Assembly (NCBI RefSeq): GCF_900604515.1
Contig: NZ_UWOS01000002.1
Location: 62,001 to 126,000 of the forward strand
Length of the DNA stretch: 64,000 nt
Direction: 5' to 3'
Origin: Arcanobacterium ihumii
Lineage (GTDB): Bacteria > Actinomycetota > Actinomycetes > Actinomycetales > Actinomycetaceae
The notes beneath the pieces are model-generated. The model was not told the DNA's origin. It worked only from the letters and a program-made list of their open reading frames with translations, and made no database searches. Made by a program: the position numbers and the translations under genes. This document shows, piece after piece, positions 55,172 to 58,621 of the stretch (positions within the stretch are counted from its first letter, which is position 1; each line of letters begins with the position of its first letter).

Positions 55172-55539
55172 TTTTTGTTTTCCTCTCGAACTCTCCGAGC
55201 TTGTTCACGCCGTTCCTGGCTAAACCTAGTCTCGAAGTCGACGTCATCACTCCAACGTTGTGTAGCACGTGACAGCCTCAATGTGCGGATGTCGGTGCGC
55301 TCTCCGACCAACTCGCGATGCTTTTTCGCCGCTGAAATCCGGCGCTGCGGATCGTCATAGACGTTTGCCGAGCGGACGTATTCTTTCAAATGCGGAAGCG
55401 CGTGGATAGAGAAAGCTTGTGCAAAGGCTCCACCAGCTAATAATAGCGCCTTAAGGGACTTCCACAGCCGCCAAAGCAACATTGAGCAATATATCCCCAG
55501 AGCAATCAAGCCGATAAATAAAATCCAAAAAATTAACAT
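55168..55539 (-). CDS. small membrane-anchored protein of unknown function
   Basis: 123 aa with one N-terminal transmembrane segment (about 2-24) and possibly a second short hydrophobic stretch (about 31-42), followed by a charged cytoplasmic tail rich in Arg and Glu (RREQARRVREENKK at the end). No family recognised. It overlaps pafC by 7 nt and the lipid kinase by GTGA, so it is translated with them. In mycobacteria tatA and tatC occupy this position between pafC and helY; the protein has a TatA-like size but no TatA signature. Confidence 0.75.
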   Translation of the reverse strand: MLIFWILFIGLIALGIYCSMLLWRLWKSLKALLLAGGAFAQAFSIHALPHLKEYVRSANVYDDPQRRISAAKKHRELVGERTDIRTLRLSRATQRWSDDVDFETRFSQERREQARRVREENKK

Positions 55540-56510
55540 CTTTCCTCAAAGCTCGCATAATGTTGCAAAACTCTATCGATACCCTCGTATTCTGCGGAAA
55601 CGATTGAATAGGGCTCAACTGAATGCACCGACTCCCCCAGCCGCACCAATAGACTCATGAACCATGCTCGATTCTTCACATTCATGGTCAACACTAGTTC
55701 ATCCTCGCTGAGACTTGCCTCTACGCCCGGCACAGATTCAAGTACCCACCGAGCACGGAAATCGCAATGTAATGTTACTCGGATACCGTCGAAATCCTGA
55801 CCTAGATTCTTCGCCTGGCGCTGTGCTTTTTGGAAGATCTTTACTGCAAGAATATTTAATCCCAATTCCACATCCGCCATGCGATCAAGGCGGAAAGAAC
55901 GGATACTCACTTCACCATCGAAAACTTCAACTATTGGATGATGTCCAGACCGCAGCATCACTGGATAACCGTGTACAGATACAGGTAACGCATTGCCTTC
56001 TTGAGTGGTCTTCCAATATTGAAAAGATACTTCACAGCGCGTCTCGATCGCCTGATCAATAGTTGATGTGACGCCATGAGCACGGACCAGAGCCGGAGGC
56101 TGCCAAAGTACAGCGCCGTATCCGGCTCTGTTCGTTGAATCAACCAACAGCGATCGAAGATCGTAAAGGGAAGAATACTGTGGTTCTTCCACTGCGTTAA
56201 GCAAGAAATCAATTGCTCCGATCAGGGAAATGACTTCCGCCAATGTGAAGGACGGACTTTCCATATTCGATACATCGTTGATGGAGACGAAGCTATCGGG
56301 ATCGGCATCATCGTCAATGGAAATCGCCAACGTCGATTCATACCAGCCTCCTGAATCAACGAATTCGACTACAAAGAGCTCAAAGAGTTCTTTGTGAAGG
56401 TCTGCAACCGACATTTGATAGTGCTTTGCTAATTTACCAAGTTCAACAGGACCGTTTGAATAAAGATACGAAAGAATTGAGATCTTTCGGGCAAGGGAAA
56501 GATCAATCAT
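55533..56510 (-). CDS. pafC: WYL-domain regulator PafC-like
   Basis: 325 aa: N-terminal helix-turn-helix (LARKISILSYLYSNGPVELGKLAKHY by position 5-30), central WYL domain (about 140-215) where the WYL motif is degenerate (VSFQYWKTTQEG; GYPVMLRSGHH), and the C-terminal WCX extension. PafB and PafC form a heterodimer that, in mycobacteria, activates LexA-independent DNA-damage genes and is thought to sense damage through WYL. Start overlaps the pafB stop by 8 nt. No proteasome or Pup-ligase gene is nearby. Confidence 0.85.
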   Translation of the reverse strand: MIDLSLARKISILSYLYSNGPVELGKLAKHYQMSVADLHKELFELFVVEFVDSGGWYESTLAISIDDDADPDSFVSINDVSNMESPSFTLAEVISLIGAIDFLLNAVEEPQYSSLYDLRSLLVDSTNRAGYGAVLWQPPALVRAHGVTSTIDQAIETRCEVSFQYWKTTQEGNALPVSVHGYPVMLRSGHHPIVEVFDGEVSIRSFRLDRMADVELGLNILAVKIFQKAQRQAKNLGQDFDGIRVTLHCDFRARWVLESVPGVEASLSEDELVLTMNVKNRAWFMSLLVRLGESVHSVEPYSIVSAEYEGIDRVLQHYASFEERC

Positions 56511-57480
56511 TGTTTACCTCTGTACTAAGCATTTCGTTAATGTGCCTCAGCCTGGTTAAGAATTCCTCACGCAACCAATCAGGTGATTCAAGGTAAACAT
56601 CGGTGCCGTAGAAAAGAAGGTAATCAAAGAGGTCGTGTTTATCAACACCATTGACATCTAGTCGATCGAAGCCCTCACGACGAATATGTGGGTCTCCACT
56701 TAATGTCAAAGATACAAGGTTTCGAAGTGGCACAGCTGTGCCTTCTTTCACCAGCAACGTAGCTCTCACCAGTTGGAATGCTTCTGAATCGGGAATATCT
56801 ACGGCATCGTGCACTGCCTGCTCCCCTATGGTCTTAGGAGCTGAAACAATGCGGTCTACTTTAAAAATCCTCGGAGCCCCAGTCGGTTTCCCATCCACAC
56901 TGATTTCCCAACCCGAAAAATAGAATGCGTCAAAGTAAACGTGTAATTTTTGAGGATCAACTACGTATGTAGCCACGCCTTGCTTTGAGGTCGATTGGTA
57001 AGTGAAAGACAGACGTTGTGATCGCTGCAATGCATTGGCAATGTTTCCGATAAATTCCCCGGTTGGAACGTTGGTACGGTAAGCCTGTGAAGTCTGGCTC
57101 TGGGCGGCATCAGCGAGCAACTTATTCATACCTGATTGCATAATTTGCTCTGTATTCGTTCTACCTTTATGCCCGAGCACTCCTTTGAGCACGCTAAGGT
57201 CTAGTCCGTGGGAGTTCACCTCAATATTGCTAGACTGGTCAACCCAGTACTCGTAGTCATTCATAGGGCTCAGTGCTTGTTCAACGCTATAGCCGGAATC
57301 TCGCAAGATTCTAATATCTTTTTCAACCAGCTCGCGAGCTGCCTTCGGCGATTTATTAGCCACTGCAGCCGAATAAATTGGTAAACGAAGAATATCGTCT
57401 AAAGAGGCCTTTCCTCGCATCAGATACAGCGCCAGAGTGATTCTGCGCTCTCCTGTGCGATTATCTTCGTGGTTTGCCAT
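56503..57480 (-). CDS. pafB: WYL-domain regulator PafB-like
   Basis: 325 aa, paralogue of the next gene: N-terminal winged helix (RRITLALYLMRGKASLDDIL; ELVEKDIRILRDSGYSVEQ by position 13-70), WYL domain (about 150-225) with LSFTYQSTSKQG and LHVYFDAFYFSGWEISVDG, and a WCX domain. The ATG has no Shine-Dalgarno sequence; on the minus strand TAAACT ends 7 nt before it, inside a 24-bp palindrome shared with the divergent DUF3866 gene. Likely first gene of the unit pafB-pafC-membrane protein-lipid kinase-helY. Confidence 0.86.
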   Translation of the reverse strand: MANHEDNRTGERRITLALYLMRGKASLDDILRLPIYSAAVANKSPKAARELVEKDIRILRDSGYSVEQALSPMNDYEYWVDQSSNIEVNSHGLDLSVLKGVLGHKGRTNTEQIMQSGMNKLLADAAQSQTSQAYRTNVPTGEFIGNIANALQRSQRLSFTYQSTSKQGVATYVVDPQKLHVYFDAFYFSGWEISVDGKPTGAPRIFKVDRIVSAPKTIGEQAVHDAVDIPDSEAFQLVRATLLVKEGTAVPLRNLVSLTLSGDPHIRREGFDRLDVNGVDKHDLFDYLLFYGTDVYLESPDWLREEFLTRLRHINEMLSTEVNND

Positions 57481-57484
57481 GTGT

Positions 57485-57508
57485 TTTAGTTTAGTGCACT
57501 AAACTAAA
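57485..57508. promoter_or_regulatory. 24-bp palindrome with two divergent -10 boxes
   Basis: Perfect 24-bp inverted repeat centred on GTGCAC (57494-57499), filling most of the 31-bp gap between pafB and the DUF3866 gene. Each arm contains TAAACT read outward: plus-strand 57500-57505 (6 nt before GTG 57512) and minus-strand 57493-57488 (7 nt before the pafB ATG). The two leaderless promoters therefore overlap and may be controlled by one dimeric regulator. Confidence 0.65.
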
Positions 57509-57511
57509 TAT

Positions 57512-58621
57512 GTGATTATTTGGCGGCAAGGCAAAGTAACAGAATTCTTAGGTTCTTGGGGGCAGTCGGGCGAATACCGAGTAGAGCTCGAGGATGGCAC
57601 GCTCGGCAAGGGGCTAGCTTACTACCAGATGGTGGGGCAACCACAGGTTGGGGACTCCGTGTTGCTCTCCACCGCCGCTGTCAAACGCGGTCTTGGCACG
57701 GGCGGATACATGTTTATCGTTGCAATCCCGGATCGCTTACCTGCTGATCCACCTCCTCAACCTGGACACATAGTTAAGAATCGATACACACCAACTCAAT
57801 TCATGGTTCAAGGCGTCGATGAACAAGAGTCTCCTTACCACGACGTTCTTGAAGACGCCGATGATCTCGAAGGTATGTACGTGGTTGCGGCGGACTTGCA
57901 TTCAGCTTTACCTGCAATTGTGGCAGGTATTCGCGAAGCATCACCACACGCTCGGATTGCCTATGTTATGGGCGACGGTGGCGCTCTCCCCGCATGGTTT
58001 TCACAAACCGCAACGAAGATGGTCGATAACGGCGATATCCTAGGAATAATTTCTTACGGTCAAGCGTTTGGCGGAGATCTAGAAGCCGTCAATATCTACA
58101 CTGGTTTGTTGGCTGCTAAACACGTGTGGAATGCAGACGTTGCAATCGTTGCTCAAGGACCGGGAAACCTTGGCACAGGTACAAAGTGGGGCTTTTCCGG
58201 AACGACTATTGGGGAAGCAATTAATGCAGCCGGTATTCTGAGCGGAATACCGATTGCAGTTCTGCGTATGTCCCAAGCCGATAATCGCTCACGCCACTTT
58301 GGAATTTCCCATCACACCCTGCGTATCCTCCATGATATCGTCCACGTACCTTGCGTCATTCCTTCCCCAAGTTTCGACTCTTCTTTCGAGGGGACAACGT
58401 CAGAAGAGCTCATCCAGACCGTCACGGCACAATTAGATGAACTTCGCGATGTGGGCAATTTAGAGGTTCATGAAATCGACGCTAATGGACTCTATGATGT
58501 GCTGGCAGGATCGCCGTATTCGCTTCGCACGATGGGTAGAAACCTAGACCAAGACACCATAAACTTCATTGCTGCAGCTGCTGCGGGACGATGTGTTGGC
58601 AGGCTCATTGTGCAGCGTTAA
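57512..58621 (+). CDS. DUF3866 family protein
   Basis: 369-aa protein of the DUF3866 family, widespread in Actinobacteria and some Firmicutes, function unknown. Starts WRQGKVTEFLGSWGQSGEY; the middle has IAYVMGDGGALPAWFS, GIISYGQAFGGDLEAVNIYTGL-type glycine-rich segments and VAQGPGNLGTGTKWGFSG (about 214-231), followed by RHFGISHHTLRIL. No signal peptide or membrane helix. GTG start from a leaderless-type promoter in the palindrome shared with pafB, which suggests a link to the PafBC regulon (inference). Confidence 0.85.
   Translation: MIIWRQGKVTEFLGSWGQSGEYRVELEDGTLGKGLAYYQMVGQPQVGDSVLLSTAAVKRGLGTGGYMFIVAIPDRLPADPPPQPGHIVKNRYTPTQFMVQGVDEQESPYHDVLEDADDLEGMYVVAADLHSALPAIVAGIREASPHARIAYVMGDGGALPAWFSQTATKMVDNGDILGIISYGQAFGGDLEAVNIYTGLLAAKHVWNADVAIVAQGPGNLGTGTKWGFSGTTIGEAINAAGILSGIPIAVLRMSQADNRSRHFGISHHTLRILHDIVHVPCVIPSPSFDSSFEGTTSEELIQTVTAQLDELRDVGNLEVHEIDANGLYDVLAGSPYSLRTMGRNLDQDTINFIAAAAAGRCVGRLIVQR

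Follow-up and report, generated by a model that had tools for sequence, protein, structure and literature searches.

The intergenic gap between pafB and a divergently oriented gene of the DUF3866 family (57481-57511, 31 bp) is mostly taken up by an inverted repeat. This locus therefore raises the question of whether a symmetric sequence between two divergent genes marks the operator of a dimeric regulator, possibly PafBC, or arises from the promoters of the genes themselves. The gap was analyzed within the window, i.e. the whole 64,000-nucleotide stretch of Arcanobacterium ihumii DNA, and in the context of the 2.0-Mb genome and of related genomes (Table 1).

The palindrome and its neighbours

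A previous reading made from the sequence only had described a perfect inverted repeat that nearly fills the divergent gap, and this description is confirmed: the two 12-nt arms (57485-57496 and 57497-57508) are 100% complementary, with a loop of 0 nt. The number of perfect 24-bp palindromes expected by chance is about 0.12 for the genome and about 5e-7 for a gap of 31 bp, and the present one ranks 8th by length among the loop-free perfect palindromes of the genome. When up to 3 mismatches are allowed, neither the window (0 in 100 shuffles) nor the 2.0-Mb genome contains a further copy. Palindromes of parS-like type that contain GTTTCACGTGAAAC occur at genome positions C4:893881, 895099 and 895787.

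Table 1. Features of the pafB-DUF3866 region (window coordinates).
Feature	Position	Strand	Remarks
pafC	55533..56510	-	Overlaps the end of pafB; WYL domain and weak HTH_PafC match
pafB	56503..57480	-	WYL and WCX domains; ATG at 57480, predicted first transcribed base
24-bp perfect palindrome TTTAGTTTAGTGCACTAAACTAAA	57485..57508	.	Arms TTTAGTTTAGTG/CACTAAACTAAA
-10 box TAAACT of pafB	57488..57493	-	7 nt before ATG
Palindrome core TAGTGCACTA (10 bp)	57492..57501	.	Identical in 13/24 related genomes, three genera
Inter-box hexamer GTGCAC	57494..57499	.	Two back-to-back SRN-type triplets, CAC outward on each strand
-10 box TAAACT of DUF3866 gene	57500..57505	+	6 nt before GTG
DUF3866 protein gene	57512..58621	+	PF12982, E=6e-117; GTG at 57512, predicted first transcribed base

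The pafB and pafC genes presumably form one operon. The neighbourhood of pafB and DUF3866 is old, since a WYL domain is encoded by the upstream divergent ORF in 45 of the 50 cases scanned. Two adjoining genes of the Pup-ligase family (PF03136), presumably dop and pafA, are located at genome C3:57107-60208, just beyond the window and about 59 kb from pafBC, and therefore pafBC is unlinked from pafA here. A search by sequence for a relative of DUF3866 with a solved structure found none. In a structure model of the protein encoded at 57512-58621 (pLDDT 84.8), the N-terminal domain is OB-like and resembles IF-1 (Z ~9.5, residues 1-75), and the C-terminal domain has middling similarity to ParA-type NTPases (Z ~9.7, rmsd 3.8). 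Likeness of a modelled fold to IF-1 or to ParA-type NTPases is no proof of function.

The -10 boxes and their register

Genome-wide, the last T of TANNNT falls at -7 for 183 candidate starts and at -8 for 91, while other offsets have between ~18 and 55 (about 37 per offset). This represents an enrichment before start codons of roughly fivefold at 6 nt and two- to threefold at 7 nt, in a leaderless set that includes false positives because the gene starts of the 2.0-Mb genome were taken from a simple ORF caller. The boxes of pafB and DUF3866 both lie exactly at these enriched offsets. The earlier statement that each arm supplies one TAAACT box 6-7 nt from one start codon thus holds and matches the genome-wide leaderless register. 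There are fourteen divergent box pairs within 120 bp in which each box is in leaderless position; the one of pafB and DUF3866, with 6 bp between its boxes, is the tightest. A second overlapping divergent leaderless pair, with boxes 9 bp apart, occurs at genome C4:849946-849980.

Actinobacterial -10 boxes often carry an SRN triplet ([GC][AG]N) upstream; in M. tuberculosis SRN precedes 49% of TANNNT boxes and no -35 motif was found (PMC3898074). At this locus CAC precedes the box on both strands. In this genome SRN is weakly enriched at -15 (S ~51%), and a purine occupies position -14 in 69% of the candidate leaderless sites and in 54/64 of those checked by orthologs.

Taken together, the palindrome probably represents two near-identical minimal leaderless core promoters that directly adjoin each other tail to tail, an assignment made from sequence features. 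From the centre outward, each arm would contribute CAC as SRN-type triplet, TAAACT as -10 box and AAA as the start of the discriminator. Transcription would begin at or beside the start codon, giving leaderless mRNAs of pafB(-pafC) from one strand and of DUF3866 from the other, with RNA polymerase carrying the housekeeping sigma factor binding in either one orientation or the other. The 6 bp between the boxes would be the tightest packing that allows one triplet per promoter; it is no absolute minimum, as some other genera have boxes just 5 bp apart. Where two SRN triplets adjoin in opposite orientation the result is NYSSRN, and the complete arrangement would thus read ANNNTA-NYS-SRN-TANNNT. 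Hence the shared spacing of 6 bp would force dyad symmetry on this segment, and the palindrome would be symmetric because two minimal core promoters abut. In the outer arms, which comprise the NNN of each box and the first discriminator bases, symmetry is confined to this species and is a species-specific extra.

With 32 bp between the predicted starts at 57480 and 57512, occupancy of one promoter would sterically preclude occupancy of the other. This had been put categorically by the sequence-only reading; what stands is that the boxes lie within the footprint of one RNA polymerase, and the mutual exclusion itself is deduced from polymerase size. How far it matters in vivo is a question of promoter strength, and the effect may be nil, since the basal output of five tested E. 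coli bidirectional promoters is too low for polymerase competition (PMC12825309).

Conservation of the gap and candidate binders

In order to follow the arrangement across relatives, the gap was read in 89 loci of the family and order. In all 24 genomes of the genera g1, g25 and g27 with a readable DUF3866 start region, the order start-(6/7)-box-6 bp-box-(6/7)-start is unchanged, with 6-7 nt separating TANNNT from the start on both sides. Outside these genera paired boxes occur 5, 7, 8, 9 or 10 bp apart, some with wider spacing, and in 25 of the 89 loci such a box pair is not present. The 24 inter-box hexamers are GTGCAC (13), CTCGAC (3), ATGCAC (2), GTGGAC (2), GTCGAT (2), ATCGAG (1) and ATCTAC (1). 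All but one (23/24) fit NYSSRN, i.e. SRN before the box on both sides; the central pair is complementary in 21/24, switching between GC and CG. Position -14 is A on both strands in 24/24, and at the other leaderless promoters of this genome G is at least equally common there; like the 13 exact GTGCAC hexamers, this is more uniformity than a pair of degenerate SRN triplets calls for. The sequence-only reading had named conservation of the palindrome in close relatives as a test; its central 10 bp are conserved in part of the clade and the full 24 bp are not, the genomes other than the 13 with GTGCAC having imperfect dyads.

The divergence against which this conservation is seen is saturated, with fourfold-degenerate sites of DUF3866 showing 0.21-0.35 identity to all relatives and 0/66 being invariant. 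On the DUF3866 tree, parsimony assigns 14 changes to the six columns of the hexamer together, compared with ~10 per column at fourfold sites, 6-10 in the spacers and 4-9 in the NNN of the boxes. Change in the hexamer is thus far slower than at neutral sites, and a chance origin of the core was rejected on the saturated sites and parsimony counts. Thirty further leaderless promoters, set against their orthologs in a single relative (400 kb of G115), served as a control. The median promoter retained ~2/6 hexamer bases and 0/30 retained all six, as the pafB-DUF3866 gap does. A hexamer serving two promoters should be doubly constrained, and the conservation observed seems to exceed this expectation, which makes an additional binder possible; such a binder is not needed to explain the symmetry.

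This excess bears on an alternative in which TAGTGCACTA is also an operator, where a putative dimeric regulator covering both -10 boxes shuts or switches both leaderless promoters. We regard this as possible but considerably less probable than promoters alone. It is favoured by the identity of the core in 13 genomes of three genera despite saturation, by the low number of changes in the hexamer relative to single fourfold sites, by the invariance of T at position 2 and A at position 5 (24/24) and by the lack of equal conservation at the 30 control promoters. However, hexamers are non-palindromic or differently centred in three genomes of the own genus and in most of g27, no local regulator besides PafBC was seen, and the double constraint would be expected anyway. 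Also, TTAGTGCACTAA has 5 copies in the genome with up to one mismatch, near the chance level, and 7 relatives show no conservation of the sole promoter-placed copy tested, which precedes a guaB-like gene; as there is no second exact copy of the palindrome either, a wider regulon was rejected. The more specific proposal that the regulator of this operator sets the supply of PafBC together with DUF3866, and so links the family to the DNA-damage response, is somewhat more doubtful still. The sequence TTAGTGTACTAA, one mismatch off the core, occurs at genome C4:792401, ~45 nt upstream of a CRP/GlxR-like gene. The least probable of the readings considered takes the symmetry as accidental, with no role apart from the two promoters, or sees in the palindrome a hairpin or terminator at the RNA level: the outer arms are indeed symmetric in this species alone, but the core is conserved over three genera at saturated divergence, and a hairpin or terminator was rejected since the site lies upstream of both predicted starts and would be in neither mRNA.

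The regulator suggested by the sequence-only reading was PafBC itself, which would bind the palindrome and autoregulate pafB together with DUF3866 upon DNA damage. The mycobacterial PafBC motif is TTGTCRGTG-N8-TANNNT, in which the -26 motif precedes TANNNT by ~8 nt. That one of the two genes is pafB and that its neighbourhood with DUF3866 is conserved speak for this proposal, but the best match to the -26 motif on either side of the gap is 5/9, a score equalled by 22% of TANNNT sites under the mycobacterial consensus, whereas recA reaches 6-7/9 in most genomes checked (6/9 in g1, the same genus, and 7/9 in g25; 4/9 in G004). In three relatives (G002, G003 and G006; loci L213, L212 and L214) DUF3866 was not found, and the dyad is gone yet the -10 box is kept, as TAAACT or TAAAAT 6-7 nt before the ATG of a fused pafBC gene. 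PafBC is furthermore an asymmetric heterodimer whose motif is non-palindromic (PMC6789036), it fails to bind double-stranded promoter DNA unless RNA polymerase is present (PMC11804915), and in M. smegmatis its levels do not change on DNA damage (PMC5656591). The suggestion of PafBC as dimeric binder is therefore abandoned as highly improbable.

Two further observations concern these genes. In the three relatives without DUF3866, pafB and pafC are apparently fused into one gene of 818-871 codons, which in G002 and G003 has hisG directly upstream. Upstream of recA (loci L215-L221), a conserved block with a PafBC-like -26 motif lies near AGGTCGGGC-TAANNT.

Significance and comparison with known systems

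If the palindrome is a pair of abutting promoters, the gap suggests that two leaderless core promoters can fit in 31 bp and persist from genus to genus, and that promoter elements can produce a striking palindrome with no regulator required. It also offers a clean natural experiment on competition between divergent promoters that overlap. That pafB and DUF3866 stay paired points to a role of the latter near the actinobacterial DNA-damage response.

With PafBC-dependent (RecA-NDp) promoters the gap shares the TANNNT -10 box, but it has no -26 motif at the proper distance, and the published motif is non-palindromic. A classical divergon, in which a dimeric operator lies over both promoters, resembles this locus in its compact dyad and in its divergent genes, one of them encoding a regulator. 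Here, in contrast, the operator is putative, the site is single and promoter elements suffice to explain the symmetry.

Bidirectional promoters (Warman/Grainger; PMC12825309, PMC10268837) likewise consist of symmetric DNA from which transcription starts both ways, with one binding event excluding the other. They differ in having one shared -10 element and starts usually 18 bp apart, and by definition the class has starts separated by 7-25 bp (PMC10268837) and reciprocally overlapping -10 elements, whereas the present gap has two separate boxes 6 bp apart and predicted starts ~32 bp apart.

There is also a likeness to the leaderless TANNNT promoters of Actinobacteria, as in M. tuberculosis, which have TANNNT ~7-12 nt before the start, an SRN triplet and no -35 element, and whose mRNA begins with the start codon; divergent promoters in close juxtaposition are described as common (PMC3898074). 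The difference here is that two such promoters would be packed almost maximally tight, in an arrangement kept in 24 genomes of three genera.
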